Shown here one piece after another: positions 15,355 to 61,682 of a stretch of 64,000 nt of DNA. The notes below the pieces were generated by a model. The model ran no database searches. It was given only the letters and a program-made list of their open reading frames with translations, and had not been told where the DNA came from. The DNA lies in the NCBI GenBank assembly GCA_034401795.1, contig JAVVLW010002724.1, positions 25,001 through 89,000 on the forward strand. Reading direction: 5' to 3'. Within the stretch, counting starts at the first letter, position 1; each line of letters starts with the position of its first letter. This stretch comes from Chaetoderma sp. LZ-2023a (lineage: Eukaryota > Mollusca > Caudofoveata > Chaetodermatida > Chaetodermatidae). The translations under genes were made by a program, and so were the position numbers.

Positions 15355-16800
15355 AAGGAACATGGTAGTACCATGTTATATACTATGGTAGATCATGGTA
15401 TGGTAATTGCTACCACAGTAGACCCTTGTCAACTGATTGTCTGACATGGTAGATAAATATCAGGTTATACCATGGCAGCTATCTAGCATGCTTGACCATG
15501 GTACTGGGATCATGGTATTTGGTAATGGAGCTTTCCATTTTTAGCTATGCCCCACCCATCTCCCGCTAAGCTCCACCCACACCTCAATCGTGTTGGGATC
15601 GATCAATCTCTGAACTCCCTGACTATCAATTTCCAGAAGACTATACGGGTAAGCTGTTAAATACTTTGAAACTAATTTGATGCTGTTGCTGCCATCTGAT
15701 GCTGCCTATGACAGCAACAGCACCCAGTCAAATTAGTTTCAAAATATTCAACAGTATGTTTATTAAATAGTAGAGACATACAATTTGTACGTGTCAGACT
15801 ATTAAGAGTTAAAGACAGGCAATATATAATCATTTATGATGCAATGATTATGACATCATCCTACACACCGCGTAGCTTATTATGGTGTCATATGACATCA
15901 TTACTCTGGAAAGGTCCATTGGGTCGACAGTAGACCATGGTAAAAAATACCATGGTAGATTCTGGTCCACTTTTGTCACAATGTGAAGTCTGTGCCAGCT
16001 GGTAGAGCCTACAATATTGTAAGCATGGCCATGAGCTACAGGAATACTCTCATGGAGAAGTAAAAGATTGATCAAACTTTCTGCATATAGAAAACTATCA
16101 AAATATTGGAATGGTTGACCTACGGTGGCATTGTTTGGACAAAGATAAAATTTATACAAGAATTCAGTGTTTATTATTATGTTTCTATGGATATGGGATT
16201 TACTATTCAAATAACGATGATTACATAATTTATGTGTAATAGTATATAATGAAAACGATGTTTAATTTTTTTAAAACACTTATTTACAATTGAACCTCTC
16301 CAATTATATTATGTCAACCATGGTCAGAACATGATTGAACATGGTTAGAGAATTTGTCCATGGGCAAACCAGTCAGAAAACATTACCATGCTCACACACT
16401 TGTCATATTTCAACATCAGCCATGGTCATCCATGTTTGACTATGAAATCATGTTGCAGGTGAATGGTCATAGAACCACAGCACGACTACCAGGGTATTTG
16501 TTAAATCGTACCATGGTAGTTGATAGCAATCATGGTCTACCATGGTAGTTGATAGCGACCGTGGTAGTTCATGGTAACCATGGCATTGCCTATGGTAACC
16601 ATGGACTACCACGGTCAGTACCATGGCAACCATGGTCATCACTGAGATACCATGCTGACAATGGACTACTATGGTGATACACAACAGCACTGGTATTTGA
16701 GAACCGACCATGGTATTTCACACGTTTCCATCGAATACCAGGCTACCATGGCATACAATGGTTGTTGTTTTTCCATGGTGACACACAGATACATAGACAG
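15355..16800. repeat. CCATGG-rich palindromic island
   Basis: The octamer ACCATGGT, its half CCATGG and variants (catggta, taccatg) occur dozens of times in 15360-15525, 15920-15965 and 16310-16780. A family B element (15527-15921) interrupts the island. The open frames at 16354-16548 and 16448-16711 translate the repeat. The island ends near acagacagacctgatcgcaa and a cttccccttacggggcgagg block also found at 22880-22912. Confidence 0.75.
15527..15921 (+). mobile_element. Hairpin family B copy with complete hairpin
   Basis: The head is ctttccatttttagctatgc. The hairpin lies at about 15653-15752, with left arm gaaactaatttgatgctgtt and right arm gcacccagtcaaattagttt. The tail contains several tgacatca / tgatgtca motifs. 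The end is ggaaaggtccattgg. It sits inside the CCATGG-rich island. The minus open frame 15848-16210 spans the element boundary and is not a gene. Confidence 0.75.
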
Positions 16801-17400
16801 ACAGACCTGATCGCAATACCATCTTCCCCTTACGGGGCGAGGGTAATGACTTCAAAATTGCTGATAAACATCAGAGCTCAAGGACCTTGACCTTTGCCCC
16901 TGTGATCTTAATATCATCACGTTGATTCCTGATTAGGATAGCCAACCAATCAAGCCAATGTTAGGTTCCGATAAGCTTAAGAAATCCTGAATATTAGCTC
17001 ACCTGTCCGGATGGTGATTTTGGCTTTTGGTCATATCATGCATGTGTGGCAACAACCTGTCTGCGAATCCATAATCTATTAAATCTATGTTATTTCAAAA
17101 TCGAGCTACAATTACAATGGAATTTTCTTGAATATTCGAGCTAGTTGCGGTATTTTCTTGAATTTTAAGAGTTGCCAATATCGGCATGCTTTTTTGGACT
17201 TTCTTGAATACTCAAGCTACCGTGAATGTTCTTGAATATTCAAGATACCTTGACCTTCCATGGATTTTACGCTAAGTAGGATTTTATTGAACCTTTTGGT
17301 GGCGAGTACAGGCTAGTTAATCTGAGCTAATCCAAACTATTCCGGAGCACAGATATTTAAGATTAGTTTTTTTGGGCTGGGTTAAAGACCTTGAACTTTG
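16800..17400. other. Non-coding DNA with short cttgaatattcaagct repeats
   Basis: Between 17120 and 17255 the motif ttcttgaatattc-aagctac recurs four times with decay. No gene is seen. Confidence 0.45.
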
Positions 17401-17404
17401 ACCA

Positions 17405-17575
17405 TAGGCAGCAACACTGCCGAGTCGAATTAGTTTCAAAACAGTCAACAGGTTATCTGTATAGTTTTCTGGAAATTGAGATTCAGGGAGTGCAGGGTTC
17501 GATAGATGCCAATACAGGCAAAGCATGGGCAGAGCTTAGCTAAAGATGGGTGGGGCATAGCTAAAAGTGGAGTCA
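17405..17575 (-). mobile_element. Hairpin family B, partial reverse copy
   Basis: gcagcaacactgccgagtcg, gtatagttttctggaaattg, then agagcttagctaaagatggg reads as the reverse complement of a family B head. Only one arm of the hairpin is present. Confidence 0.6.
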
Positions 17576-17680
17576 CTCATTGTGTCACTTTAATCATAAC
17601 ACATTATTATATCGAAATAGGATTTGGTGATTTTGACAAAAAAAACCCTGATAATTGCACATGGTTATACACAATAAAAT

Positions 17681-19033
17681 CAAGAGGCCAAAGGGGCCTG
17701 TATCGCTCACCTGGAACATGTAGAACAAAGGCATCTCAACTAGAAAGGTCATCGCCTTTATGTAGAACACTAAGGCTTAGCCAGAACGACAAGGATCTGT
17801 CCTAACAAATTTGGATAAAATCAGTCCAGTCGTTCTCGAGGCGATACTTTCAATTTCCCATTGCTTTACTATGGGAGTTTTTAACGGGAAAAAAAATCCA
17901 AGATAGCCACCAATCCATTATTTCCGACAGTTTAGAAAGCGGCAAATTTGAAATGTAATCAGCATATCCAAAACCTTACATAAACCCAATTTCAGCTTCA
18001 AAATACATCAAATAAAAAATCCAATATGGCTGCCAAATATGCTACATTTTGATTGGTCCATAGTGGCGATGTATTAACTTCCTTTGAACAATGCTTAATG
18101 GCCCTTAATGCCTAATCAGATTTAAGAAATTTCAGCCCAATCCATTCAGCGGTTCTGGAGCTCCTTTTCGTGAAAACTAGGTCATTCAAGATGACCGCTG
18201 AAGAATTTGGCCAATTAAGTTCTCCAAAATGTCAGCCCGATTCAATTCAGCAGTTCTGGAATTGTTTTTGAGAAAACTAGGTTGTCCAAGATGACTGCCG
18301 AAACATTTGACCAATCATATATTCCCTTGAACAAACTTTGTTCAGCTCTTGCTCCACATGATGTTTCATGAGTTTTGAATCGATTTGATGATCAGCTTCC
18401 TTTGAACAAACTTGGATCTCTATGCCCTAAAGATGCTTCCTGCAAATATAATTGAAATCAGACCAATGGTTCTCGAGGACATTTTAAATTTCCCATTGCT
18501 TTAGTATAAGCAAGCATGTTTTTGATGGGAAAAAGATTCAAGATGGCCACCAGACCGTTAATCTGAGTTTCAAAAATGGAAATTTGAAATCAGCATACCC
18601 AAAAACCTATTGCAAACCAATTTTGGCTTCAAAATCAATCAAATAAAAATTCCAATATGGTCACCAAACACGTAGTCCCCAATCATATCTCCTAAACTTC
18701 GGCCATGTCATTCCCTTGAACAAATTTGATTCAGGTCTTGTCCTTGATGATAGTTCATGCATTTTGAATTGATCCCCCAAGCGGTTTCGGAGAAATTTTT
18801 CAAGATATTTCTAAAAATAGACCAAAATCCAATATGTCCGCCAGCCAAATTGATCGTCAGCATACTTTTAACAAGCTTGGATCTGTATATCATAAGGATG
18901 CTTCTTATCAAAATATAATTGAGATTGGCCCAGTGTTCTTGAGAAGCTGCTTAAAGAAAAAGTTGACTGACGACGGTCATATTGACGGTGACCACAGCAT
19001 AAGCTCCCTTGGCCTTTCAGGTCAGGTGAGCTA
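17681..19033 (+). repeat. Interspersed repeat E
   Basis: It begins caagaggccaaaggggcctg / tatcgctcacctgg and ends cttggcctttcaggtcaggtgagctaa. The ends carry the complementary decamers gctcacctgg and ccaggtgagc (here one base changed). The interior repeats blocks such as ccaagatggccgccaaac, ttgaacaaacttggttcagc and aaatataattgaaatcggcc. No coding frame is conserved; it is a non-autonomous repeat, class undecided. Confidence 0.7.
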
Positions 19034-19149
19034 ACAATCCATATCGTGGTTGATAGAATGAAAGCGTATTGTTACCTGATTTCTTATATCTCACGATTCT
19101 GAATATGATCGTTATTTTAATCTGATCTTTCAGGGATGTAGGAACGTAC

Positions 19150-19215
19150 TTTGACAGGGGTGGGGTGAGTGGTGGTGGGGTGGGGGGTGGGTGGGGGGGG
19201 GGGGCTAAACTGTGG
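19150..19215 (+). other. G-rich tract with quadruplex potential
   Basis: Near-continuous G runs, longest 12 (about 19192-19203), with single T or A spacers. The open frame 19165-19398 starting MSGGGVGGGWGGG is a translation of this tract, not a gene. Confidence 0.6.
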
Positions 19216-19639
19216 GTGGGGCCAAAACCTAGAGGGGTGGGGTGCTATGGGAATATGCTATGGGAGAGAAAAAACCTAGGTTGTTATTGGCGCCTTGCAC
19301 CCCACCCTACCCCCACTGTTCCTAAACTTATGTATTTTCTTCGATTGAGGAATACAATTATGAAGAGAAAAAAATTATTATTTGGTCACGTTATATAAAT
19401 AATCTCTTATAAGATCGGCTGAGAAAACATGACTGGAAATCTGTCATGAATACAGATCGGTAAAAAAAGTACTCAACTCAAATGTTACACATTTCAAAGT
19501 GCTGAGTGATCTAGTAAATCTTTAAATCTATGGTTAAATCCATAGAATGTATGATAGTGTATGACATTTTCCTTCCAATCCTCAATATGCTTTTTCTGAC
19601 ATGGTGGGTATTAAGCTCCTCAAACAAATGGATCTTTCC

Positions 19640-19985
19640 TGTTTTTGATAAGCCATGCTCACCTCTAGCTAAGCTCCACCCACACCTCGCTCATGCTAGG
19701 ATCAATCGATCCCTGAACTCACTGACTATCAATTTTCAGAAAACTATCACAGCAACAGCACCGAGTCAAATTAGTTTCAAAATATTGAACAGAATATTTA
19801 TTAAATAGTACACATACAATTCGTACAGCAATGCATATTCCGTCTTCAAATATGCATTCATGACATACTTATCTACGTCATTCATGGCGTCATAATGACG
19901 TCATTCATTATAATGTCATTCTATATGTCACCTAGTTGATTATGACGTCATATGATAGAAGGATAAAGTGGAATGGTCCATTGAC
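19640..19985 (+). mobile_element. Hairpin family B copy, left arm lost
   Basis: The head agctaagctccacccacacc and the tail with tgacgtcattc and gattatgacgtcatatgat are present, ending ggaatggtccattg. Around 19740 the sequence passes from aaaactatca directly to cagcaacagcaccgagtcaa, so only the right arm of the hairpin remains. Confidence 0.7.
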
Positions 19986-20029
19986 AAGCCAGTCACTCAG
20001 TACTCAGTATTCATACATTATCAACCCTG

Positions 20030-20225
20030 TTAACACGTGAACTTCCAGCATCTCAATTTCAAGACAACTTTACACTAAGACTCTTGAATGTTTTGAAACT
20101 ATTTGACTGAAACCATAGATAGCAACAGCAGCTCCAAGTCAAACGAGTTTCAAAATATTCAAGAGACTATTCCTCATTTCAAAAAGAATTTGTCATTTCA
20201 TGTTTGTAAAGGTTATACTGAGTTA
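20030..20225 (+). mobile_element. Hairpin element, D-like
   Basis: The left arm tgttttgaaactatttgact and right arm caagtcaaacgagtttcaaa flank agcaacagcag. The head resembles family D (ctcaatttcaagacaac) and the tail includes aagaatttgtcatttca. Pairing is imperfect. Confidence 0.55.
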
Positions 20226-20267
20226 ACACACAATTTTACCACAAAAAGAAGTCTTCCCTATGGGCAT

Positions 20268-20972
20268 CACCTAACCCTTTTAAACCACAAAATCTGTTCA
20301 AAAGAGTAAAGATTTTCTCATAGAAATTGAGCATTGGCAGAACAAGAGGACTATTTTTTTTAAATTACCACTCAGGGAATGACTGGCTCGATTATCTAGC
20401 TAGTCATTCCAGTGGTAGATTTTGAAAAATAGTCTTCTCTTGTTCTGTAAATGGAGTTCTCAAGAACCTGGCAGAACCCTTTTTTGCTGGCTTGGGTGTT
20501 TAAAGGGTAATACCCCTTACCACTCTGATTTCAATATTCTTTTATTGTGTTTATAGCAAAGAAACTGGTGCACATTTTAAAATAATTTTGGTGTTCAATG
20601 TTGCTGTCCTGGGCCATTTTTGTTTCTGGCAGCGACATCTTCCACCAAATTTGTTGAAAAATGTACACCAATTCATCTTTTAGTTTAATCTTAAAATTTC
20701 AAGTTTTTACATCAGAGCGGTAAAAAGTTAACTCTTTAATGGCCTAGCCGGCCAAAACCATCCTTCATTATGATCTTGTGAAGTATTCATTCACATGTTA
20801 AGAGAATACAATTTTTGAAAATTTACCACTGGAATGACTGGCTCGATAACCGAGCCAGTCATTCCAGTGATAAATTTTCAAAAAATTGCATTCTCTTGGC
20901 CTGTAAATGGACATTCAATAGGCAGATATTAAAATATTCTTGACCAATTTTGACCGGCAAATGGTTAAAGAG
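20268..20972. mobile_element. Hairpin cluster A(rev)-G-A(fwd)
   Basis: A in reverse orientation spans 20268-20513. A G hairpin spans 20518-20725, with terminal inverted repeats taccactctgatttcaata / ...catcagagcggta and arms gaaactggtgcacattttaa / gaaaaatgtacaccaattca. A in forward orientation spans 20728-20972, centre ggctcgataaccgagcc. The three elements abut with only a few bases between them. Confidence 0.7.
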
Positions 20973-21434
20973 AAGTGAGTAGTCATCATTGTTTATAATC
21001 CAGTGCAGGCATTATCCCCTCCTGTGTGCTTTACAATGCCAGAATTCTAAATGTGCACATAATTTTAGAGGTAATGTCCTGTAATAAAGCCTCATTATAA
21101 AATGAGGTGAATGGAAGCCTGGAGGGCAATATGATGACGCTAATGCTCAGCGTGCCGAAAAAAGGAAGGGCGGTTATGGCCCACCAGAGAGTTCCGCTAT
21201 CTTGAGGCTGAGAATTTCAGACTATTTTTACGCTATGAAGATTTGAAAGCAGGCTTTCTATACCACATTATAACATTCTCTACAAACTGGATTGTTGATG
21301 GATTTTATGTTTTTTTGACTGGATAAAAAGATATTGACTGACTTTGCTGAAATGTAATCCCAGGTGAGTTTTTTCTCTGAAGGTACTGATGAACCGGACA
21401 AGATGTGAATCAATACATGGGCTCTAAATTTAAT

Positions 21435-21955: not shown

Positions 21956-22159
21956 TAAGCTGTTGAATATTTTGAAACAGCTTTGATTTCAACTTGTTGG
22001 CCACCAACAGCTGCTTCCAGTTAAATTTGTTTCAAAATTTTCAACCGAATATTAATCATAAAGAATTAGTTATTTTGCCTGATGATGCTTAAGGTATTTG
22101 CGTAATGTATGATTGCTGTATTCTGCGATTGTAGTAGTAGTAGAAACATCCTACAGCTG

Positions 22160-25149: not shown

Positions 25150-25260
25150 ATATTAAACATATATAATATTTTGAAACCAATTTGACTGAGAGCTGTTGCT
25201 GTCTGTGAAAACAACAACTTTCAGTCAAACTGTTTTCAAAATATTCCACAGACCTACCTA
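25150..25260 (+). mobile_element. Hairpin element of the B/C/D superfamily
   Basis: The arms tattttgaaaccaatttgac and gtcaaactgttttcaaaata pair around agctgttgctg...acaacaact. Confidence 0.6.
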
Positions 25261-25389
25261 TAAAATGGAGAAAATATTGTACACAGGAGAGAATGTGTCA
25301 CGAAAAATGTCTTTGTCCTGAAAATTGCAATTCAATTTACTCTGATCAATATAACTCATAATTGTAAGTCACTGTGTATAAGATACTAA

Positions 25390-25600
25390 CACTTTCACCG
25401 ATAAATTCCGCGCATCTCAATCTTGCGGAAAACAGACTGGAAGGCTATTGAATATTTTGAAATTAATAAGACTTGGAAGCCATTTTGCTGCCTTATGCAG
25501 CAATGGCTACCAGTCATATTAATTTCAAAATATTCAACAGAATATGATATACATCAAAAAGAATTTAGTTTTTCAGGGATTTGTCATTGAAAGGGTTAAA
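25390..25600 (+). mobile_element. Hairpin element D
   Basis: The hairpin lies at 25447-25532: left arm attgaatattttgaaattaa, right arm catattaatttcaaaatatt, centre gctgccttatgcagc. The tail aagaatttagtttttcaggg and a closing aaagggtta are diagnostic of D. Confidence 0.7.
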
Positions 25601-26884: not shown

Positions 26885-27097
26885 AACTGTCTCACTGCTG
26901 CAAGCCACTGGAGAATAATTTCAATGAGCAAAAACTCTTGACCTGCTGAATATTTTTAAAACAATTTGAATGAAAGTTGTCGGTGGCTAAGCCACCGACA
27001 ACTTTCAGTCAAATTGTTTTCAAAATATTTAGCAGGTCCAGAGATATAATCCCTGAAAGATGTCGTCTGCCAAAACTCAGCAGTCAGCTGGTTAAAG
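26885..27097 (+). mobile_element. Hairpin element C
   Basis: The hairpin lies at 26942-27037 with centre cggtggctaagccaccg, left arm aaaacaatttgaatgaaagt and right arm actttcagtcaaattgtttt. The tail is agcaggtccagagatataat and the closing block ctggttaaagg. Confidence 0.7.
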
Positions 27098-29190: not shown

Positions 29191-29209
29191 GGCTAATAAG
29201 GTATTAATT

Positions 29210-29420
29210 AACCTGTCTACCGACAAATTCCATGTATCTCTACCTCAGGGTAACCAAACAGGAAAGTTGTTGAATATTTTGAAATTAATATGACTGGAAT
29301 CCATTGCTGCCTTAGGCAGCAATGGTTTCCGGTTATATTAATTTCAAAATATTCAACAGAATATTCTATGCATCGTCAAGAATTTACTTTTTCAGGGATT
29401 TGTTGTTGAAAGGGTTAAAT
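29210..29420 (+). mobile_element. Hairpin element D
   Basis: The hairpin lies at 29266-29357 with centre gctgccttaggcagc, left arm attttgaaattaatatgact and right arm gttatattaatttcaaaata. The tail aagaatttactttttcaggg and gttgttgaaagggttaa complete it. One of the cleanest D copies. Confidence 0.75.
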
Positions 29421-29904: not shown

Positions 29905-30115
29905 GGTTTCATTATCTGTCTTGCTGCTGAAAGCCACCCAACAATTATTTCAATGAGCAAAAAATCTAGACTTGCTGACAATTTTGAAAACAATTTGACT
30001 GACAGTTGTTGGTGGCCTAGCCACCAACAACTTTCAGTCAAATTGTTTTCAAACTATTTAGCAGATCGAGTGATATAGCACCTGGAATATGTCGTCTGCA
30101 GTCAGACGGTTATAC
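29905..30115 (+). mobile_element. Hairpin element C
   Basis: The hairpin lies at 29971-30065 with centre ggtggcctagccacc and arms attttgaaaacaatttgact / agtcaaattgttttcaaact. It has the same head (gctgaaagccacc) and tail (gtcgtctgcagtcag..ggtta) as the copies at 26.9 and 32.3 kb. Confidence 0.72.
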
Positions 30116-30589: not shown

Positions 30590-31600
30590 CTTAGCTTCTG
30601 TTTCAAAATCTGTCCAATAAAAGATTTCAATATGGGCACCAAATTTTGATTGATGCATGGCAGACATGTTTTTGCATGCATCAACTTCCCTTGAACAAAC
30701 CTTAACGGCCCTTAATCTCTGATCATATCTCCCAAATTTTGGATCAATCCATTCAGCAGCGACTCTGGAGAAGTGGTTTTCGCGAAAACTAGGTCATCCA
30801 AGATGGACGCCAAACAATTTGGCCGTTCCCCTGAACAAACTTGGTTCAGCTCTTGCTCTGGATGATATGTCATGAGGGTTGGATCAATCCCACAATAAAT
30901 TAATTTACCCGTTATCTCTATCAATCAGGGTAAACAAACAAGAAAATTGTTGAATACTTTGAAATTAATAGGACTGGAGGTCGGTGCTGCCCTAGGCATA
31001 TTAATTTCAAAATATTCAACAGAATATGATCTACATCGCAAAGAATTTACTTTTTCAGGGATTTGTTGTTGAAAGGACATCTTTCAGTCAAATTGTTTTC
31101 AAACTATTCCTTCAGTCCTGAGATCTATCCTCTGGAGAAATTCATACGGTTTACAAGAATCTTTTGTCTATTTATTCTTGACCCATTAACCCTCATATCA
31201 GCCAAAAACGGCCTCTGCAGTGGTTTTGAGAAATGTCCATTGGCAGACAGAGATTATTTTTGAAAATTTATCACTGGAATGACTGGCTCGGTTATCGAGC
31301 CAGTCATTCCAGTGATAAATTTTCAAAAATAATCTCTTAGCCTGAAAATGGACATTTTCTATGAAATAATTTAAATTTTCTTGAACAAATTCAAGCCAGC
31401 CAAAAACAGCATCAGCCATACTCCTCAGGAATGTCCATTTGCAGATCATGAGACGCTTTTTGAAAATTTACCACGGGAATGACTGGCTCGATAAGCAAAT
31501 TATTAACTCTAATCTCTTGATCTCTAACAAATGGCAATTTTCTATGAGAAAATTGAAATTTTTCTGAACAAATCTGAGGGTTTTAAAGGGTTAAAATGCA
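30590..31600. mobile_element. Nested repeat block: E fragment, D, A, A
   Basis: An E fragment spans 30590-30900 (ccaagatggacgccaaacaa). A D hairpin at 30898-31076 is short of part of its right arm. An A copy at 31185-31420 has a near-perfect hairpin and loop gttat. A second A copy at 31393-31600 is degenerate, missing most of the right arm and closing with gggttttaaagggttaaa. Confidence 0.65.
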
Positions 31601-32264: not shown

Positions 32265-32465
32265 CAATTGTAAGCCACCAGACAATAATTTCAATGATCA
32301 AAATCTCTCGAATTGCTGAATATTTTGAAAACAATTTGACTGAAAGTTGTTGGTGGCTTGGCCACCAACAAATTTCAGTCAAATTGTTTTCAAAATATTT
32401 AGCAGGTCCAGAGATATAACCCCTGGAATATGTCATCTGCAAAAACTCAGCAGTTAGGCGGTTAA
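32265..32465 (+). mobile_element. Hairpin element C
   Basis: The hairpin lies at 32313-32406 with centre ggtggcttggccacc and arms attttgaaaacaatttgact / cagtcaaattgttttcaaaa. The ends match the other C copies. Confidence 0.72.
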
Positions 32466-32559
32466 GGAAATTATGCCGAGATGTAGCTATTAATTCTCAT
32501 GGAAAATGATTGAACTGGATCATTGTAATTATTTTCAACACAGGCAAAATTAGCTCTTA

Positions 32560-32830
32560 ACCCTTTCCCCGACAAATCCCTGAAATAGTATATTCTTTAC
32601 GAGATAAAACTTATTATGTTGAATATTTTGAAATAATTTGGCTGGTAGCGGCTTCCAGTCAAATTAATTAAAAAATATTCAACATTTTTCCTGTATGGTA
32701 GTGTTGAAAACGAGATATAGGCAGCAATAACTTCCAGTCAAATTAGTTTTAAAAATATTCAACAGATTATTCTTTACATTATAAAGAATTTTATTGTTTC
32801 TCGTTTGTAGTGGACAAAAGGTTAATAATT
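32560..32830 (+). mobile_element. Two broken D-type hairpins
   Basis: The copy at 32568-32690 keeps both outer arms but has a shortened stem (ttggctggtagcggcttccagtc). The copy at 32690-32830 keeps only the right arm (cttccagtcaaattagtttt) and the D tail aagaattttattgtttctcg. Confidence 0.6.
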
Positions 32831-33415: not shown

Positions 33416-33458
33416 TAGCGAGTAGATAACATAGAGTCATGATGCAACAAAACAATGG

Positions 33459-33821
33459 ACCTTTCCAGAGTACCCACCCATCATATGACGTCATAATGAA
33501 CTGCGTGATGTGTACAATGACATCATAATGAATGGCGTCGTATGTACGTCACGAACGCATATTTGAAGACGGTCTATGCGTTGTTGTACAAATTGTTTGC
33601 TTTTACTATTTAATAAATATTCTGTTGAATATTTTGAAACTAATTTTACTTGGCGCTGTTGCTGCCTATGGCAGCAACAGCACCCAGTCAAATTAGTTAC
33701 AAAATATTCAACAGCTTTCCTGTATAGTTTTCAGAAAATTGATAGCTAGGGCATTTGGGGAGCGATCAATCCCAACACGGTGAGGTGTGGGTGGAGCGTA
33801 GCTAGTGATGGGCGGGGCATA
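33459..33821 (-). mobile_element. Hairpin family B, complete reverse copy
   Basis: It starts aatggacctttccagagtac, with tcatatgacgtcataatgaa just inside. The hairpin spans 33626-33713 with centre gctgcctatggcagc, and the head in reverse reads ggagcgtagctagtgatggg. The outer end is replaced by an E element starting at 33822. Confidence 0.75.
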
Positions 33822-40669: not shown

Positions 40670-41145
40670 AACCATCAAAATTGTTTTTAAAAATTTCAAG
40701 AAAATGTCCATTTGCAGAACAAGAGAAGACTATTTTTTTTAATCTAGCACTGGAATGACTGGCTTGGTTTGCCCTCTGGGTGGGGCTTAGAATACACCTT
40801 CCGTATCCTCTGCGTGTCGTAAGAGGCGACTAAAGGAGGTAAGGGTGAGGTAACCCTGACAGAAACCTCGAGTGCTGAAGATGGAGGTTCCAGGCCGCAC
40901 GGCGCACTCTAACAAACCATGGATCCACGCACTTAACGCATATGATCATGTCGATAGTCACTTACAGGACTGGTGGTATGATCAGCGAACGAAAAGAAGA
41001 AAGAAGAAGACTGGCTTGGTTATTGAGCCAGTCATTTCAGTGGTAAAATTTTCAAAAATAATCTCTTGGTCTACAAATGGACATTTCACAAGACAACTGC
41101 AGAATCCATTTTTGGCTGATATGCGTGTTAAATGGTTAAATTAAA
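40670..41145 (-). mobile_element. Hairpin element A interrupted by a retroposon
   Basis: The outer parts (ccatttgcagaacaagagaa on the left, gttattgagccagtcatttc and aatccatttttggctgatat on the right) form one reverse A element. Its loop region is split by the 40770-41008 insertion. Confidence 0.72.
40770..41008 (+). mobile_element. GAA-tailed retroposon, copy 1
   Basis: About 239 bp, from tgccctctgggtggggctta through ctctgcgtgtcgtaagaggc to a (gaa)n-like tail. It is flanked by a 13-bp target-site duplication, gactggcttggtt (40757-40769 and 41009-41021). It is 95% or so similar by eye to copy 2. The open frame 40872-41144 reads through it into host DNA and is not an independent gene. The lineage (SINE, or 3' end of a LINE) is undecided. 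Confidence 0.8.
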
Positions 41146-41444: not shown

Positions 41445-42490
41445 TTTATTATCCCCATGTTTTTCGAAGACATCTGTGCGTGCGGGCAATTCATTGTACC
41501 GCATCCCCTCCGAAAACCGTTGGATGGAAATCAAACGAATTTAGTATGTGTGTTGCCCATATAAGTGTGGACAACCCTAGAGGTGGGGCTTAGAATACAC
41601 CTTCCGTATCCTCTGCGTGTCGTAAGAGGTGACTAAAGGAGGTATGGGTGAGGTAACCCTGACAGAAACCTCGAGTGCTGAAGACGGAGGTTCCAGGCCG
41701 CACGGCGCACTCTAATAAACCATGGATCCACGCACTTAACGCCTATGATTATGTCAATAGTCACTTACAGGACTGGCGATATGATCAGCGAACGAAAAGA
41801 AGAAGAAGAAGAAGTGTGGAGTGCAACAGCACATTTGGATTTGGCTTATTTGCAGGGGGTCATGGCAGGGGTCAAAAGGCCAAATCGATTGTAATGCAAC
41901 TCATCTGAAACAATTAGACAGAATTCAACCAAATTTGATATGTTAGATATACATATGATTGCCGAGTGCAAGAGGCCATTTACATTTGGCTCCACTCCCG
42001 TGGGGTGGGAGAAGGCATCAAAAGGTCAAATTTAACATGCAAAAATTGATTGTAACGCAACTCCTCCGAAACCGATGACCAAAATTCAACCAAATTTAGC
42101 ATATGAGTTACCCATATCAATGTGGAGTGCAAGAGCATCACATCCCAAAAGGTGGGTGGGGGATGGGGTCAAAAGGTCAAGAAACTGATTGTAATGCAAC
42201 TCCTACGAAACTATTGGGCTGAATTAATTTGCTAATAAATTTGGTATGTGTGTTACTCATATGAGTGTGGTGTGCATGAGCTCACTTACATTTGGCTCCG
42301 CCCCTAGGGGGTGGGCCAGTGGTCAGAAGGTCAAATTGATTGTAACGAAACTCCTCTGAAACCATTGGACATAATTCAACCAAATTTGGTACGCAAGCTA
42401 TCCCTAAAAATGTGGAGTGCAAGAGCACATTTATATTTGGCCCCACCCCTAGGGGGTGGGTGGTTTGGGGTCAAAATGTCAAGAGATTGA
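41445..42490 (+). repeat. Pearl-like repeat F, interrupted
   Basis: It opens with a ttattatccccatgtttttc hairpin-like block. About five monomers of about 150 bp follow, each with gattgtaatgcaactcctc, gaattcaaccaaatttggta, gtggagtgcaagagcaca, a C-rich block ending ggtggg, and ggtcaaaaggtcaa. The first monomer is split by the retroposon at 41572-41811. Non-coding. Confidence 0.65.
41572..41811 (+). mobile_element. GAA-tailed retroposon, copy 2
   Basis: About 240 bp, nearly identical to copy 1, ending in (gaa)n. It is flanked by a 9-bp duplication, aagtgtgga (41563-41571 and 41812-41820). The shared peptide-like frame (RTAHSNKPWIHALNAYD) differs by both silent and replacement changes and gives no proof of coding. 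Confidence 0.8.
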
Positions 42491-43235: not shown

Positions 43236-44010
43236 AATGTCAGGTACTGCGCAATCAAGTGTAACAAGCGCACTGACAGATGTGACCCTGCAGCATACTA
43301 TGGAGTAAGTAGTCATGTACACATGTCAGGTACTGCGTAATCAAGTGTAACAAGCGCACTGACAGATGTGATCCTGCAGCATACTATGGAGTAAGTACAA
43401 TCATGTACACATGTCAGGTACTGCGTAATCAAGTGTAACAAGCGCACTGACAGATGTGACCCTGCGGCATACTATGGAGTAAGTAGTCATGTACACATGT
43501 CAGGTACTGCGTAATCAAGTGTAACAAGCGCACTGACAGATGTGATCCTGCAGCATACTATGGAGTAAGTACAATCATGTACACATGTCAGGTACTGCGT
43601 AATCAAGTGTAACAAGCGCACTGACAGATGTGACCCTGCGGCATACTATGGAGTAAGTACAATCATGTACAGATGTCAGGTCTGCGTAATCAAGTGTAAC
43701 AAGCGCACTGACAGATGTGATCCTGCAGCATACTATGGAGTAAGTACAGTCATGTACAGATGTCAGGTACTGCGTAATCAAGGGTAACAAGCGCACTGAC
43801 AGATGTGATCCTGCAGCACACTATGGAGTAAGTACAGTCATGTACAGATGTCAGGTACTGCGTAATCAAGTGTAACAAGCGCACTGATGGATGTGACCGT
43901 GCAGCACACTATGGAGTAAGTACAATCATGTACACATGTCAGGTACTGCGTAATCAAGTGTAACAAGGGCACTGACGGATGTGACCATCCAGCATACTAT
44001 GGAGTAAGTA
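43236..44010. repeat. Satellite, 86/88-bp unit
   Basis: Nine tandem units starting atgtcaggtactgcgtaatc and including agcgcactgacagatgtga and agcatactatggagtaagta. Units alternate gaccctgc and gatcctgc for the first six copies. The minus frame 43575-43796 is repeat translation. Confidence 0.95.
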
Positions 44011-45504: not shown

Positions 45505-45815
45505 TCAATTATATGATGTCATAATCAACTACATGACGTGTAGGCTGATGTCATGATCATTATGTCACGAATGACTTGATTTAGTCCATCTTAAATACTT
45601 AATAGTCTGACACGTTTGTATGAATTGTATGTCTTTGCTATTTAATAAACATGCTGTTGAATACTTTGAAACTAATTTGATTGGGCACTGTTGCTGATAG
45701 GCAGCAACAGGACCCAGTCAAATTAGTTTCAAAATATTCACAAGCTTACCTGTATAGTTTTCTGAAAATTGATAGTCAGGGCGTTCAGAGATCAATTGAT
45801 GTCAGATATTTGAGT
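45505..45815 (-). mobile_element. Hairpin family B, reverse copy
   Basis: The tail block gatgtcataatcaactacat comes first. The hairpin at 45656-45740 has centre gctgataggcagc, arms tactttgaaactaatttgat / cagtcaaattagtttcaaaa, then gtatagttttctgaaaattg. The head is truncated at about 45815. Confidence 0.7.
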
Positions 45816-46496: not shown

Positions 46497-46880
46497 GTTA
46501 AATCTTTCACTGACAAATCCATGAGAAAGTAATTTCTTTACGCTATACAACGTATTCTGTTGAATATTTTGAAATTAATTTGACTGGAAGCGGTTGCTGA
46601 AGGCAGCAACGGGCTTCCAGTCAGATTAATTTCAAAATATTCAAGTTTTCCAATATGGTTGCTTTAAAAATGAGATATGAGGAATTCATCGGTGAGAGGG
46701 TTAATATTTGTTCATTCAACTGTCTGTCTGCTGAATTTCAGCACGCTACATTTCCTATGGGATCTAACTCTGGATATGCTAATCCACCAAACAACTTTCA
46801 GCAACATTTTTCTCAAAATATTCAGCAGGTCCAGAGTTATTGCCCATTGAAATTATTGTCTAGTGGCTGGCAGAAATCAG
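46497..46880 (+). mobile_element. Hairpin element D followed by decayed C
   Basis: The D hairpin lies at 46557-46645 with arms gaatattttgaaattaattt / gattaatttcaaaatattca. From 46725 a decayed C copy is visible, with head gtctgctgaatttcagcacg and tail aatattcagcaggtccagag / ttattgcccattgaaattat. The plus frame 46655-46888 is repeat translation. Confidence 0.6.
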
Positions 46881-47159
46881 TGAGTTAAAGGGCAAGAGAA
46901 GACTGTTTAAGAAATTTACGACTAGAATGACTGGTTGCAGCCTGCAAAGGAACATACCTTAACCCCTCCAGTGTCAACTTAACTCTTCAAACTTCAAACC
47001 TTCTAGTTCAAACCAACCAAAATCAGCTACATACTGGTCTTGAGGCATGTCTATTTACAGACCAAGAGAAGATTATTTTTGAATATTTACCACTGGAATT
47101 AACCCAACATGAGATATGAACTGCTAATTTAAGGTAAAGGGAAAAATGCTATTAATTGA

Positions 47160-52104: not shown

Positions 52105-52502
52105 ACAATTGGCCGTTCCAGTTGCTAAGCCCCGCCCACCTCTAGCTAAGCTTCACCCACACTTCAACGTGTTCAGATTAATTGATCGCTAAATGCCCTA
52201 ATTATTAATTTCCTCAAAACTATACAGGTAAGCTGTTGAATATTTTGTAACTACTTTTACTTCGTGCTGTTACTGCCTATGGCAGCATCAGCGCCCAGTC
52301 AAATTAGTTCTAAAGTATTCAACAAAATATTTATTAAATAGTAAATACATACAATTAGTACAACAACACATAGTCCCTCTTCAAATATGTATTCCTGACG
52401 TACTTATCTACGTCATAATGACATCATTGATTTTGATGTCACTCTATACGCCATGTAGTTGACTATGATGTGATACGATGGATGGATAAACTTGGAAAGG
52501 TC
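52105..52502 (+). mobile_element. Hairpin family B, complete copy
   Basis: The head is cctctagctaagcttcaccc. The hairpin lies at about 52228-52325 with centre actgcctatggcagc, arms gttgaatattttgtaactac / tagttctaaagtattcaaca. The tail contains gacgtacttatctacgtcat and ttttgatgtcactc. Confidence 0.72.
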
Positions 52503-54175: not shown

Positions 54176-54544
54176 CTAAAATATTATAGGGTAGAAGATA
54201 GAGAAGCCATCAGATGAAGCATTTCTCCCAGTGGGTGGTCTGTCTGACTTGATCCGGTACACAGGCCTCACAAAAAGCTTTTTCAGAAGTGGATACCAGA
54301 TCTGATTTTTCCAGTCTGGTAATATCAGAATTCCTATTGCGTGATCTTTCTGAACCTTCCATAAAATCTTTAGAATGACGCAAAACGGTGGAACGGCATA
54401 AAATCTGAAAATTTTCCAATCAATAGTTAATGCATCCACAGTCACCGCCTCAGGATCTGGTCCCCATGACACAAATGGTTTAATTTTATAATTTAGACGA
54501 CTCGCAAAAAGATCAATATCACAATCAAATTTAAAATGGCGCAT
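54176..54544 (-). pseudogene. DIRS-like pol: domain after RNase H
   Basis: The frame contains DIDLFASRLNYKIKPFVSWG, DPEAVTVDALTIDW, FYAVPPF and ILILPDWKNQIWYPLL, the ordered blocks (DLFAS, P-DP-A--VDAL--W, YAFPPF, P-W--Q-WYP-L) found between RNase H and tyrosine recombinase in DIRS-group elements. It is separated from the RNase H frame by a frameshift near 54545. The recombinase that should follow is not found below 54176. Confidence 0.75.
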
Positions 54545-54891
54545 AACATTATGAAACTTACTATGACCCTAACCCTAGTCCATTCTGTTCGATCATTAAA
54601 AATTATTGACTTTAAATCAGCTGATAAGAAATTGTTCCTCTCTATACACCATAACCAAATATCTTTAGCTATCACATGGCATTTAAGTGACTTTGTACCG
54701 CCCATGTGATTAACATAAGAAACAGCTGTTGCATTATCAGTCCTGACCAAAATATGTTTATGTTTTTCAGGAACTAAAGACTGAAGACCAAAAAGAACTG
54801 CTTTTAATTCTAATTCATTTATATGATTCGCTGATTCCATGCTTTTCCATCGACCATCTGTCTTTTGAGATTGTCTTACTGCCCCCACCAT
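54493..54891 (-). pseudogene. DIRS-like RNase H
   Basis: ANHINELELKAVLFGLQSL carries the conserved Glu and ILVRTDNATAVSYVNHMGG the conserved Asp, as in DIRS RNase H. The first acidic strand (TDAS-type) is lost or diverged at the N-terminus. After EWTRVR the frame is out of register, and the true continuation lies in 54176-54544. Confidence 0.78.
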
Positions 54892-54892
54892 C

Positions 54893-55340: not shown

Positions 55341-55767
55341 TCAAATTTTGCAGTCCAAGTTTATATCCGGTTGTTGTATATGGATGATATCTGTCACTGT
55401 GAGCTCCGCGAAACCGAAACTTTCAATGGCTTCATCGCGAATGTGCATTCGCTCTCATGGAATTCAAGAAATTTGATTAATGGGTATAATATACAGACGT
55501 ATGTGGATAAAACGGGTCTAGTGTGGCAATACTCCCACTTGAACAGCATTTCTTAAAATACAACCACTTAATAGTAAAACAATGCAAATTATGAACTTCA
55601 CAAAGATTAAAATTGCAAACATAAACAGAACTAACAACTTTCACAGAATGCCAGAGTATTCAGTAGGCTCGGGCACTGTTGTGTTGTGTAATCTTAGCGA
55701 TGTCGGTAACTGATTCATTCGTTTGATATCTGCACTATAAATTATTGTTGTGCAGCGCTCAGCGCTG
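55341..55767. other. Non-coding DNA
   Basis: Two overlapping plus frames (55261-55476, 55371-55556) have no recognised domain. Confidence 0.4.
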
Positions 55768-55770
55768 TTA

Positions 55771-55901
55771 GGCCCGATTTATAAGTTAAACTTCTCTTGT
55801 GGCATTCCAGCTAAATCTGCCTGAAAATGACAGAGTCTGCTTTATTTGAACCAGTCATCATTAGTGCGGCGCGAGAGAAAGCTTGACTTATAAAACGGGC
55901 C
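55771..55901. mobile_element. Harbinger-like MITE
   Basis: 131 bp with imperfect terminal inverted repeats of about 25 bp (ggcccgatttataagttaaa at the left; the right end reads, inverted, ggcccgttttataagtcaag). It is flanked by TTA on both sides (55768-55770, 55902-55904). TTA/TWA duplications are typical of PIF/Harbinger. It encodes nothing. Confidence 0.75.
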
Positions 55902-55904
55902 TTA

Positions 55905-56780
55905 GGCTTTGATCTTTGAGGCTAGCACGGGGGTTCGCAGCACTCGCGCCACTATTTTCGGTGACCGTCTAGACATATTTAAGATTTTTCGAATCCCCTC
56001 CAATCTGAGTGATCTGTAAACAAATGTAAGAAACCCATGTGAGCGCATCTATTGATCCAGAACAACAATAGCGTAACAAATATGGGTGACATAGTCAGAA
56101 TTTGTGTATAAAAATTAGCAAAAGTTAAAAGCATACTAAACTCGTTACATTGCAATAAAAATATTTAAAATTTCCCAAACTTATGTTAGCTTGCAGGTAA
56201 TGTCTCTTTAATTGAGTGTCAGCCCAGATCCCTCGATTCTGGAGATTTGAGATATTCACTTACACATGCACAAATTCACGGATCACGGGATGCATGATAC
56301 ACCAGCAGATCTAATTAATTGCATATTTTATCCACCGCTCTACAACTCTCTAAAGGCTCACATCTGTCAATATGGAGGCCATTAATGCTATGGTAACATA
56401 GAATGCAATCACTTTATGATGAATATAAAACAACAATCTAGTTCAAAACCTATACTTATTAATCAACAGTGATGTGGTTATTATAATTATAAACACAAGC
56501 ATAATACAATTAATTAGCTACTATGATTTTGGAATTCATCATAAAACTATGTTGTTGAAAAATCATCAGATGTAGTAAATTTCAGTTATTTTTTCTATGA
56601 TAAAATGTGAATAAAAGCTAGATGAGATCTACAGGACACTTTGTCCTAATTATATTTTGACATGAGGGGACATTCCTTATTCACATTTTGTATAATATTC
56701 CTATTTTAGATATTTAAGGGCAAATTATTTCCTTATTGACAGTTGAGAGGTTATTCTTCCAGGCCCGTTGAACGGCATTC
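55905..56780. other. Non-coding AT-rich DNA
   Basis: No gene or known repeat of the window recognised. Confidence 0.4.
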
Positions 56781-56784
56781 TTTA

Positions 56785-57553
56785 ACAAGAGGCCCAAGGG
56801 CCTGTTGTGCTCACCTGGACCATTAGCATTTGAACCATTTGCATTTAAATAGATATAATGGATAATTAAAAAAAAATCCAAGATGGCCTCCCAAAAGATT
56901 TACCAATCAAAATTCTGAATAAAAATTCTAGTCTACCTTGATAGGATCGCTCCAGCCAAATTTGTTTGAAATATGTCAAGTAACTAAGGAGAAGCAGCGT
57001 TTTGACCGTTTCCAAGAAGTTTTTCATAAAATCTAACATTTTCACCCAAAAAATGGATCAATCAAAATTCTGAATAGAGGTTCTAATGCCTACCACCATA
57101 GAATGCATCTAGCCAAACTTGGTTGAAATATGTCAAGCAGCTAAGGAGAAGTAACATTTTGACCATTTCCAGTAGATTTTTCATAAAATGTCAGATTTTC
57201 AGCCAAAAAATGGATCAATCAAAATTCTGAAAAGGGTTCTAGAGCCTACCACCATAAAATGCATCTAGTCAAATTTGGTTGAAATAGGTCAGGCAGCTAG
57301 GGAGGAGTAACATTTTGACCATTTCCAGTAGATTTTTCATAAAATCTAAGATTTTCACCCAAAAAACAGATCAATAAAAATTCTGAAACAATAATCTGGA
57401 GGGTACCAGCTTAGGAGCATTCCAGCCAAATTTGGTTGAAATTGGTCAAACCGTTAAGAAGACGCTATTTGATGGACAGATGGAGGGATAGATGACAGAC
57501 GGACGGCTGCCATGGCATAAGCTCACTTGGCCTTTCAGGCCAGGTGAGCTAAA
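56785..57553 (+). repeat. Interspersed repeat E, subtype 1
   Basis: It opens with aacaagaggcccaagggcct / gttgtgctcacctggacc and ends cacttggcctttcaggccag / gtgagctaa. It has four monomers of about 165 bp, each with caatcaaaattctga, agccaaatttggttgaaata, agctaaggagaagtaacatt and gaccatttccagtagatttt. It is the most compact and cleanest E copy. Confidence 0.75.
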
Positions 57554-57739
57554 AATGTAACAAATGACACTAAACTTGAAGTTGTTTGTTTGGGAGGTCC
57601 TCCTGCTTTCATTAATTTTCTAAATTGTTCTCTTCTCTCACTATGGGCCTTTGAAGAGTCATTTTACGCTTTAGAGGGCATTCCGCTTTTAAAAAACATT
57701 GGTGGGGCATTCTTTCCTTACTGGCTCACTACTCTTTTA

Positions 57740-57828
57740 TTAACCAAAACTGTTTCAAAATGTACACCAGTTTCTTTGATACTGACACAGTAAAAGATAG
57801 AATATCAACATCAGAGTGGTAAGGACGC
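57740..57828 (+). mobile_element. Hairpin element G, half copy
   Basis: aaaatgtacaccagtttctt and agaatatcaacatcagagtg / gtaag match the right half of the element at 20518-20725. Confidence 0.5.
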
Positions 57829-57849
57829 TCGCCGAGGACAAGAAGCAGA

Positions 57850-59345
57850 GGACAAAGACAGCTTTCATTGACCATTTGTGGGACAATCTTTTCTCATTGA
57901 CCTTTAGGGACTTTTTTGTTGAGCATTGCATGATGGCGCAGTCTTTTCTGATTTACCTATAGGCTCTACTCCTCTTATATTGACTATTGGTAGGGGATTT
58001 TTTATCTCATAAAGTTTAAAAAGCATATTTTTATTTTATTGACCATTTGTGGGCCCACCCCTCTTTCATCATTGACCTTTCAGTGTTTATGACTCCTTCC
58101 TTCACTGACCATTGGGAGACATTCTTTCATCATTGACCTTTCAGTGTTTATGACTCCTTCCTTCACTGACCATTGGGAGACATTCTTTCATCATTGACCT
58201 TTCAGTGTTTATGACTCCTTCCTTTCCTGACCATTGGGAGACATTCTTTCATCATTGACCTTTCAGTGTTTATGAGGCCTTCCTTTCCTGACCATTGGGA
58301 GACATTCTTTCATCATTGACCTTTCAGTGTTTATGACTCCTTCCTTCACTGACCATTGGGAGACATTCTTTCATCATTGACCTTTCAGTGTTTATGACTC
58401 CTTCCTTTCCTGACCATTGGGAGACATTCTTTCATCATTGACCTTTCAGTGTTTATGAGGCCTTCCTTTCCTGACCATTGGGAGACATTCTTTCATCATT
58501 GACCTTTCAGTGTTTATGACTCCTTCCTTCACTGACCATTGGGAGACATTCTTTCATCATTGACCTTTCAGTGTTTATGACTCCTTCCTTTCCTGACCAT
58601 TGGGAGACATTCTTTCATCATTGACCTTTCAGTGTTTATGACTCCTTCCTTCACTGACCATTGGGAGACATTCTTTCATCATTGACCTTTTAGTGTTTAT
58701 GACTCCTTCCTTCATTGACCATTGGGAGACATTCTTTCATCATTGACCTTTCAGTGTTTATGACTCCTTCCTTTCCAGACCATTGGGAGACATTCTTTCA
58801 TCATTGACCTTTCAGTGTTTATGACTCCTTCCTTTCCAGACCATTGGGAGACATTCTTTCATCATTGACCTTTCAGTGTTTATGACTCCTTCCTTCACTG
58901 ACCATTGGGAGACATTCTTTCATCATTGACCTTTCAGTGTTTATGAGGCCTTCCTTTCCTGACCATTGGGAGACATTCTTTCATCATTGACCTTTCAGTG
59001 TTTATGACTCCTTCCTTCACTGACCATTGGGAGACATTCTTTCATCATTGACCTTTCAGTGTTTATGACTCCTTCCTTCACTGACCATTGGGAGACATTC
59101 TTTCATCATTGACCTTTCAGTGTTTATGAGGCCTTCCTTTCCTGACCATTGGGAGACATTCTTTCATCATTGACCTTTCAGTGTTTATGACTCCTTCCTT
59201 TCCTGACCATTGGGAGACATTCTTTCATCATTGACCTTTCAGTGTTTATGACTCCTTCCTTCACTGACCATTGGGAGACATTCTTTCAGCATTGACCTTT
59301 TAGTGTTTATGACTCCTTCCTTCATTAACCATTGGGAGACATTCT
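57850..59345. repeat. 61-bp satellite with degenerate flanks
   Basis: About 21 units (58071-59345) of attgacctttcagtgtttat / gactccttccttcactgacc / attgggagacattctttcatc. Flanking stretches 57865-58070 and 59345-59490 hold older, strongly diverged units (ttgaccatttgtgg, cattgacctt). Unit variants are arranged in part as A-B-C triplets. Confidence 0.95.
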
Positions 59346-59629
59346 TTCTTTATTGACTTTTAGAAGTTTATTCCTATTTTACTGGCCATTGGAATGGAAT
59401 TATTTCCTTATTGACCTATTGCAGCTTGATTACACTTTTATAGATGAATGGTTGGAGTGGTTTCCTCATTGCTCTTTTTTATCCAATTCCTCTTTTATTG
59501 ACTATTGCTGAGCCATACATGCTTTCAGATCACTGATCTTGACAAGATTTCTTTCCCATAACTATTTCAATGGACATATGATGTTTGTAATTGATTAAAA
59601 AAACAATAGTACAGTTATCTTCTGGAAAC

Positions 59630-60060
59630 CGATTTCAAGATGGCCACCAGTGGGCGGCTGGTGGTAATTTTGCATCTTGGATCATATCTGATTGCTTCAG
59701 ATAAACTTCTTTTGAAGACACAAATTTTGGCTTCCAAATCAATCCAAATTTCAATATGGCCGCCAAAATGGCGAGATCCGATTGGTCGATGGTGACCACG
59801 ATTTTTAACGTACTAACATCCCTTGAATAAACTTTAATGGCCCTTAGTCCCGAGAAATCATACTTATATGATCCTTTCAGCGATTCGTGCGGTCATTTTC
59901 ATGAAAATTAGTTCATTCAACATGGCTGCCCAAGTATTTGGCTAAGCAAGGTCCTTTGAAAAAGCTTGGTTCAGCTGTTGCCCAAGATGATGTTTCATGA
60001 GTTTTTAATCGATAACCAAGTGGTTTCAGAGAGGATTTTTAAAGATGTTTCTAAAAAAAT
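59630..60060 (+). repeat. Interspersed repeat E, internal fragment
   Basis: caagatggccaccag, caatatggccgccaaaatgg, gattggtcgatggtgaccac, ttcagctgttgcccaagatg and tttaaagatgtttctaaaaa are E subtype 2 blocks. Both ends are missing. Confidence 0.6.
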
Positions 60061-60129
60061 CTCAGTACTGCATGAAATCATCAACAGAGGCAATGCCATG
60101 ATATGGAAAATGTTGGAGGGATCCAGTTT

Positions 60130-60495
60130 ATTCAACAATCATATGACATCATAATCAACTATGTGCTGTGTGCATGCTGATGTCATAATCAATTATGTCA
60201 TTATGGCATAACTATGTTCATCACAAACGCTTAATTGAAGGTGGACTAATCGTTGTTGTACGAATTGTATGGCTTTACTATTTAATAAACATTCTGGTGA
60301 ATGTTTTGAAACAAATTTGACTGGGCAGCATAGGAAACAACAGCACCATGTCAAATTAGTTTCAAAATATTCAACAGCTTACCTGTAGTTTTCTGGAAAT
60401 TGAGATTCAGGGAGTGCAGGGATCAATCGATCCCAAAATGTGGGAAGTGTGAGTAGAGCTAAGCTAGAGATGGGCATGGAATAGCAAAAAGTGGA
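60130..60495 (-). mobile_element. Hairpin family B, reverse copy
   Basis: The tail atcatatgacatcataatca comes first. The hairpin is at 60298-60384 with a shortened stem (gggcagcataggaaacaaca), then gtagttttctggaaattgag and the head agctaagctagagatgggca. Confidence 0.68.
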
Positions 60496-60649
60496 CTCCT
60501 CCATTGTCAAGATGGCCGCAGTGACTCCGGGCAGCCAAATTAAATTTCAGATCATCGTTGACTTTAATATGTTTCTTTCTCATTACTCCAATGAATCTAT
60601 GAACTGTCAAAGCAATCTGACCAACTAACAGACAATCATAGAGGCTATG

Positions 60650-60870
60650 TTCCGTCCAGTTCTAGCCAAGCTCAGCCCACGTTTTTACGCGAGTTGGAAT
60701 GGATTTGAAACTCTGTAACATGAACTTCCAGAATCTAAATTTCAGGGTAACAATACAGATAAGCTGTTGAATATTTTGAAACCAATTTGACTGGGAGACG
60801 TTGCTGTTTAAGGCAATGATAGATGCACCAGCTTCCAGTCAGATTACTCTCATATTATTCAACAGAATGT
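60650..60870 (+). mobile_element. B-like hairpin element
   Basis: The head is ttctagccaagctcagccca. The hairpin is at 60768-60863, with left arm attttgaaaccaatttgact and right arm cttccagtcagattactctc; the right arm is diverged. A pearl-like F copy begins directly after it. Confidence 0.55.
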
Positions 60871-61262
60871 TTATTATCCCAAAATGATTTTATAATCACA
60901 TCTGTCCCTCCGCCTGTCGATCTGTCCATGCATCACGCTATCTCCTCCCAAACCATTGTGTGGAATTCAAACAAATTTGGCATGTGGCTTTCCCATATAA
61001 CTGCGGATTGTGCGACATTTATGTTTGGCTCCACCCTTAGGGGTGGGGAAGGGTCAAAAGGTCAGAGAAATAGATTGCAATGAAACTCCTCCGAAACCAG
61101 TCGACGGAATTACACCAAATTTGGGAGGCGAGCCATATAATTATGAAGGGCAAGATTACATTTACATCAATATGCGACGCCAGGGCTTGGGGGTCAAAAG
61201 GTCAAAGCAGTGAATGTGCGGATTTGCGATGATGCGTCATCGACCGAGCAATCTAGTTAAAT
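60870..61262 (+). repeat. Pearl-like repeat F, short copy
   Basis: One and a half monomers (gtggaattcaaacaaatttg, ccacccttaggggtggggaa, gggtcaaaaggtcagagaaa) and the family tail gatttgcgatgatgcgtcat / cgaccgagcaatctagtt. Confidence 0.65.
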
Positions 61263-61285
61263 TTTTAATTCATCAAAGCCATACA

Positions 61286-61682
61286 ATGGACCTTTCCATT
61301 TTTAGCCATGCCCCGCATAGCTAAGCTCCACCCACACGTCACCATGTTGGGATTGAGCAATCCCTGAATGCACTGACTATCACTTTCCTGAAAAATATAG
61401 TTAAGTTGTTGAATATTTTGTAACTAATTTGACTGGGTGCTGTTGCTGATTATGGTAGCAACAGTCAAATTACTTTCAAAATATTCAACAGGATATTTAC
61501 TAAATAGTAGACATACAATTCGTACAACACCGCATAGTCCGTCTTCAACTATGCGTTCGTGACGTACTTATCTATGTCATTCATGACATCATAATGACCT
61601 CATTAATTGTGATGTCATTCTATAGGTCATGCAGTTGATTATGACATCATATGATGGATGGATACAGTAGAAAGGCCCATTA
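61286..61682 (+). mobile_element. Hairpin family B, complete copy
   Basis: It starts caatggacctttccattttt. The hairpin is at 61408-61492 with a partly deleted right stem. The tail contains cgtgacgtacttatctatgt, catgacatcataatgacc and gattatgacatcatatgatg. It ends gaaaggcccatta. Confidence 0.75.

Follow-up and report, generated by a model that had tools for sequence, protein, structure and literature searches.

A hairpin with co-varying arms at the centre of three families of miniature transposons in a contig of the mollusc Chaetoderma

Coral CMITEs are piggyBac-type miniature inverted-repeat transposable elements (MITEs) of Acropora, which carry TTAA target duplications, measure about 96-108 bp and include a 75-base internal region (PMC2872659). 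Their families have different ends and a common internal region that is more conserved than those ends, and CC[C/T]T is given as the terminal motif of piggyBac-type MITEs (PMC2872659). As for hairpins themselves, template switching has been described as their maker and possible keeper, maintenance being less clear than creation (PMC8794818). Here we describe three families of hairpins, named B, C and D, in a stretch of 64,000 nucleotides (the window) of the caudofoveate mollusc Chaetoderma sp. LZ-2023a (contig JAVVLW010002724.1 of assembly GCA_034401795.1, positions 25,001 to 89,000). The hairpins are the centres of longer non-coding, non-autonomous DNA transposons, that is, of MITEs, and their arms have changed together between families. 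The pattern is real, fairly well defined and, for the most part, explained by transposon biology.

Foldback or palindromic MITEs have long inverted arms and short spacers. Both features are shared by the elements described here, but in these the inner 45 nt of each arm are matched and the flanks beyond them are unlike in B and D. Coral CMITEs represent the closest described kind. By their description, the likeness comprises the TTAA, the small size, the combination of different ends with a shared internal region, and CCCTTT ends such as those of most D ends. Arm identity between families is 0.82 for B-D and 0.76 for both B-C and C-D, whereas the flanks (the 45 nt outside the hairpin core, on sides named e1 and e2) reach 0.68 for e1 in B-D and do not rise above permutations in C-D. 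However, the CMITE length of around 100 bp is not found here, since C and D elements measure 207-213 bp and B 397 bp in its two complete copies; the CC[C/T]T end is missing from C, and the ends of B are of another kind; and a palindrome or arm covariation, present here, is not mentioned for CMITEs in the passages of their account consulted (PMC2872659). Template-switch hairpins resemble ours in their multi-base changes of both arms, which restore perfect stems in one event, even though they lie in RNA genes (ribosomal RNA and microRNA) and ours at a transposon centre, with change at the family level only (PMC8794818). An earlier, sequence-only reading of this DNA knew of no described system of such form. 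As regards a co-varying hairpin common to MITE families, none was found in titles and abstract openings among the matches listed by a literature search, which is no proof of absence; CMITEs and template-switched hairpins, on the other hand, are partial precedents already described.

Elements built around the hairpin

The motif TTGAATATTTTGAAA occurs 46 times with up to two mismatches, against 1.4 expected and a maximum of 5 in 100 shuffles, and an ungapped hairpin scan returned nine loci of the B, C or D type with arms of 32-55 nt. The remaining copies, more decayed than these, were picked up by other searches. A chance origin of the hairpins is ruled out by the motif counts together with the shuffles of pair changes presented below. 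The shared half-hairpin and the short-loop hairpins, with the arm sequences originally quoted for B, C and D, are present. The loops, once put at about 3 nt, measure 1-5 nt in the well-matched hairpins of the ungapped scan but 10-11 nt in two D copies.

C and D are short, non-coding, multicopy elements with inverted ends. Their 11 loci have 22 sides, and 12 of these carry an exact TTAA at 57-60 nt from the outer edge of the core (60 nt in C, 57-60 nt in D). About 0.03 per side would be expected from the TTAA frequency of the window, the 57-60 nt range having been taken from the data themselves. Among the ten other sides are some where one base differs (CTAA, TTAG, TTAT), some where the arm has been lost and some with a broken end. 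Copies with TTAA at both ends, on the plus strand like the other A, B, C, D, m20, x22 and x25 loci placed below unless stated otherwise, are C26 (26883-27095, hairpin 26943-27035) and C32 (32253-32465, hairpin 32313-32405), both of 213 bp, and D29 (29208-29418, hairpin 29267-29359), of 211 bp; D46, of 207 bp, is on the minus strand (46498-46704, hairpin 46557-46647). The rearranged D32 (32557-32825, no strand assigned) also has TTAA at both ends and measures 269 bp. Its middle runs from a hairpin into part of the e1 flank, then an extra arm and a further e2 flank, which gives it the look of two fused copies.

The end consensus of D is close to CCCTTTCACCGACAAAT, the ends of C read CTGTCTCACTGCTG, CCAGCTGACTGCTG, CCGCCTAACTGCTG and similar, and TTAACCCT occurs 12 times against 2.3 under a first-order model. 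Among the 12 ends with exact TTAA, the CC[C/T]T motif is present in five of the seven from D and in none of the five from C. TTAA ends as in piggyBac-type elements are seen in C, D and several copies of a further family, A, and not in B, and the transposase of C and D may, judging from these ends, be piggyBac-like. The ends do not fit Kolobok, a different superfamily with TTAA duplication, whose elements have 5'-RR ends (PMC9587614): the TTAA is followed by CC or CT at 11 of the 12 exact-TTAA ends and by AT at the remaining one. The TTAA at these ends would represent a target duplication.

In B the hairpin sits within an element that is larger and bounded by inverted ends of another kind, close to AATGGACCTTTCC/GGAAAGGTCCATT. 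The two copies that keep both ends and both arms, each of 397 bp, lie at 15524-15920 (outer ends AATGGAGCTTTCC...GGAAAGGTCCATT, hairpin 15654-15754) and 61285-61681 (hairpin 61406-61491). B itself appears to be a D-like or m20-like stretch embedded in this larger element; m20 is a bridging element (20030-20226, hairpin 20081-20165) whose TTAA lie at 51 and 61 nt from the edges of its hairpin. The flanks were compared by column-permutation z scores, in 35 comparisons in total. Between B and D the e1 flanks are homologous, with a mean score of 20.0 where permutation gives 6.1 ± 2.3 (z 6.1), and the e1 flank of m20, tested jointly with the locus at 60767, resembles both (z 8.8 to B, 6.1 to D); this last locus (60764-60866) is a B-type hairpin with 73% arm identity and an e1 flank like those of B and D. 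On side e2, m20 is D-like (z 5.8), and B and D show no significant likeness (z 1.8). Within families, e1 and e2 are unlike in D (z -1.5) and alike in C (z 5.3). The flanks had been called unrelated between families; this is so for C and D as far as visible (z -0.5 to 1.2), but not for B and D on side e1. C e1 gives z 2.8 with B e1 and 2.5 with the m20 set, values marginal among 35 comparisons for which we claim no homology.

Family A has a different hairpin and an element plan similar to that of C and D. Its arm gave shuffle p values of 0.003, 0.0135 and 0.002 against B, C and D, respectively, yet the best shuffle outscored each real score. One A hairpin (31249-31337) has 42 of 42 arm positions matched, and nine more A loci besides this one entered the within-family tests.

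Covariation of the arms between and within families

An arm consensus was derived for each family from 29 of the 45 aligned arms, and the first 34 columns were compared. Between B and C, seven columns differ in each of the two arms, six of them common to both and five of these with the identical base change (P 3e-5); between B and D, five and four columns differ, with four common and three identically changed (P 8.5e-5); and between C and D, five and six differ, with five common, all identically changed (P 2e-5), all three P values treating columns as independent. Random placement would give 1.4, 0.6 and 0.9 common columns, respectively.

The same is seen in the individual hairpins. In seven gapless ones, which are related to one another and three of which are C, the share of paired cells is 91.1% (83.5% in shuffles), and 13 of the 45 pairs change on both sides, where shuffles give 8.5 ± 1.5 and reached 13 in 2 of 500 cases. 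Cells with both-side change number 29 (11.8 ± 2.5 in shuffles), and neither this number nor the covariation score was reached in any of 500 shuffles. When the partner is slid by 1-3 columns, only 1-4 such pairs remain. The number of further pair types in these hairpins, however, was equalled or exceeded in 427 of 500 shuffles and so shows no excess. Both-arm covariation between families is therefore real.

Within families the picture is different. Arm identity within a locus is 0.844 in B (seven loci), 0.905 in D (five) and 0.919 in C (three), and left-right identity between different loci of one family is 0.850, 0.864 and 0.900, respectively; the mean between left arms is 0.888 in B, 0.852 in D and 0.896 in C, and that between right arms 0.836, 0.891 and 0.956. 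Permuting arms among loci, within-locus identity has p values of 0.64 (B), 0.10 (D), 0.33 (C) and 0.04 (A), and shared private changes number 1 against 1.4 in B (p 0.71), 4 against 2.0 in D (p 0.16), 1 against 0.7 in C (p 0.50) and 7 against 3.8 in A (p 0.07). Fisher's method over the four families gives p of about 0.2 for concordant changes and 0.08 for identity, all from small samples. Upkeep of the hairpin in every copy is thus unsupported for B and C by either measure, with D and A leaning towards it. The proposal that each family changes both arms together holds between families but meets no significant excess within them, and the outcome named beforehand as pointing to mere recent descent from a palindrome, namely arms of one locus diverging as fast as arms of different loci, is what B and C copies show and may or may not extend to D and A, given the small samples. 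Single copies can also be unmatched: the two arms of x25 (25159-25251) are in different states, with 78% identity, and one arm has been lost in three B copies, B17, B19 (19627-19982, surviving arm at 19775) and B61b (61860-62079, right arm lost, outer end 62067-62079).

How the arms came to match

The contrast between the family level and the copy level points to source elements whose arms were matched and to copies that were little or not maintained. We consider it probable, if well short of certain, that B, C and D are MITE families organised around a single homologous hairpin whose arms measure some 45 nt, matched in the sources and decaying neutrally in the copies. Since both-arm change is real at the family level, the sources were subject to some process, whether a switch of template, repair of the hairpin or selection, and their arms would have been kept or made alike while their sequence changed. 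The simplest route would be the copying of one arm onto the other, either by polymerase template switching inside the hairpin or by mismatch repair in the folded strand. Each burst of transposition would then spread a matched hairpin, and single copies would subsequently decay neutrally, arm by arm, now and then losing one of them. The original proposal of conversion, template switching or selection keeping the pairing thus survives for the sources at the family level, single copies giving no significant both-arm excess.

Arm copying, which we infer to have acted mainly in the sources, is favoured by both-arm changes that one G-U step does not bridge, column 24 going from U-A to A-U and columns 41 and 44 from C-G to G-C, for example. 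Timing is suggested by m20, whose core has C at column 3 in both arms, where D has mostly G, and C instead of T at column 19, with a B/D-like e1 and a D-like e2 flank. D and m20 have kept the same pair of unlike flanks, yet both arms of the core differ between them; judging from this one locus, the element would seem to have been asymmetric already when a process restricted to the hairpin acted. A possible single arm-to-arm transfer is the T shared at columns 26 and 30 by the B33 right arm and the B52 left arm, a weak case because T at column 30 is also present in D25 e1 and m20 e2.

Several points weigh against this interpretation. The within-locus identity of D (0.905) is above every between-locus mean of that family (p 0.10), so that, given also the p of 0.04 in A, some conversion may have taken place in D and A copies, or sub-families may be involved. 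Since the e2 flanks of B and D are not significantly alike, the asymmetry argument is left with side e1 and the single locus m20. Independent families are few, namely the three main ones together with m20, x22 and one sub-family of D, which makes the number of copying events small and unsure, and the family-level P values assume independent columns. Some arm differences in the sources persist as well: column 6 of C has G in one arm and A in the other in three of three loci, and three B copies carry an unmatched T at column 16 of the left arm. Finally, no autonomous partner for the B, C and D elements was found among the nine open reading frames of the window that were scanned.

The alternative explanations overlap with one another and with the above, and the likelihoods we give are not meant to add up to a whole. 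The one that survives best, although we regard it as unlikely, is selection on the folded form in the sources, where the hairpin would be needed for transposition, or as a site for the transposase or a host factor, and compensating changes would be favoured. In its favour, the core is the best conserved part between families (0.82 for the B-D arms and 0.68 for their e1 flanks, unrelated flank pairs scoring 0.63-0.65), and columns 5-18, 21-23 and 25-30 are without both-arm change; the authors of the CMITE study speculate that the conserved internal region aids transposition (PMC2872659). Contrary to this, the changes at columns 24, 41 and 44 could not have passed through one G-U pair, B copies have no both-arm excess, and a binding site would hold its sequence with no need for pairing.

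Rather unlikely, in our view, is a repeated new origin, in which one arm was duplicated in inverted order in each family, so that the match would reflect the age of the palindrome and no upkeep. The divergence of B and C arms within one locus, similar to that of separate copies, agrees with it, as do the consensus arms, with no more than 2 (B), 2 (C) and 4 (D) mismatched columns out of 45 between the two arms, and the palindromy kept by the C flanks. However, the core begins at the identical CTG in the three families, with similar arm length, and m20 shares the unlike flanks of D on both sides, which separate origins of whole elements would not lead one to expect. For a duplication limited to the core, this explanation merges with that of arm copying in the sources.

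Doubtful too is an exchange between families, with whole hairpins moved among unrelated elements by ectopic conversion or nested insertion. It would fit B, with its D-like core and e1 flank within different outer ends, and the lack of detectable relation between C and D flanks; the nearly equal distance from TTAA to core in C and D is instead what whole-length descent would give, and a B-ended element without the hairpin (6001-6213), representing an internal deletion or an empty state, marks no clean insertion site. With equal reserve, the hairpin could be seen as a structure-dependent transposition module that matches itself by folding and recopying in replication and is carried between elements with different ends; if true, one self-correcting palindrome would serve several transposon systems. 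Hairpins kept as RNA, for instance as small-RNA precursors, are highly improbable: they are long and predicted to be very stable (-60.2 to -63.5 kcal/mol in three of them, with RNA parameters), but no Rfam family matches them at gathering score and the copies have no significant pairing constraint.

Other copies, surroundings and significance

The remaining loci are more fragmentary. A D element with TTAA on the right and CTAA on the left lies at 25386-25599 (D25, hairpin 25445-25540). Another D hairpin, at 30947-31022, has shortened arms and lacks a TTAA at the expected distance, to the left as to the right. The x22 hairpin (21960-22047) has CA at columns 19-20 of both arms and, by eye, a D-like right flank. 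Of the C type are a hairpin at 29972-30064, with TTAT at the expected left TTAA and a decayed right end, and a minus-strand element at 46750-46888, with a single recognisable arm and TTAA at one end. B is further represented on the minus strand by hairpins at 45654-45744 and 60294-60377 and by the element B33 (33454-33714, hairpin 33622-33714, outer end 33454), which runs to about 33826 with its other end missing, and on the plus strand by the hairpin B52 (52233-52325, arm identity 76%). By eye only, a possible fifth hairpin family is seen at 14877-14969 and about 20505-20735, with arms containing TTTGGTGG...GTTGCTGTC and ends like TACCACTCTGAT.

Regarding relatives elsewhere, exact-pattern scans of viral_contigs for prokaryotic or viral ones were without match, a search that more diverged relatives would escape, and the single match in genome_contigs (L121) had no inverted copy within the 280 bases inspected and was taken as chance. 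A transfer RNA-derived repeat was discarded, as no transfer RNA or transfer-messenger RNA was detected with bacterial settings.

The window is rich in interspersed and tandem repeats, holds 27 open reading frames of at least 100 amino acids and has CpG at 0.54 of expected, as would suit animal or other eukaryotic DNA. Reverse-transcriptase-type domains (Pfam) are present in two of the nine frames scanned: one on the minus strand (9573-10952, RVT_1, E 3e-19), within a region of adjoining frames at 8076-14013, and a weak reverse-transcriptase-like match on the same strand at 54493-54891 (RVT_3, E 1.6e-5). The minus-strand frame at 8076-8717, without Pfam match at E 0.01, resembles by eye the tyrosine recombinase of DIRS-type retroelements. 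Long tandem arrays, 87-95% matching, occupy 2466-3732 (44 bp period), 5183-5994 (59 bp), 43237-44010 (88 bp), 58062-59361 (61 bp) and 63496-64000 (45 bp), and another interspersed repeat, starting GTAACCCTGACAGAAACCTCGAGTGCTGAAGA, forms a near-identical pair at 40850-40909 and 41653-41712.

MITE families with a co-varying hairpin represent a test bed for the self-correction of DNA hairpins by template switching, being free of the RNA function that clouds this question in ribosomal RNA and microRNA genes. They also indicate that change in both arms, often read as a sign of functional RNA, can arise in elements whose copies lack a clear structural constraint.

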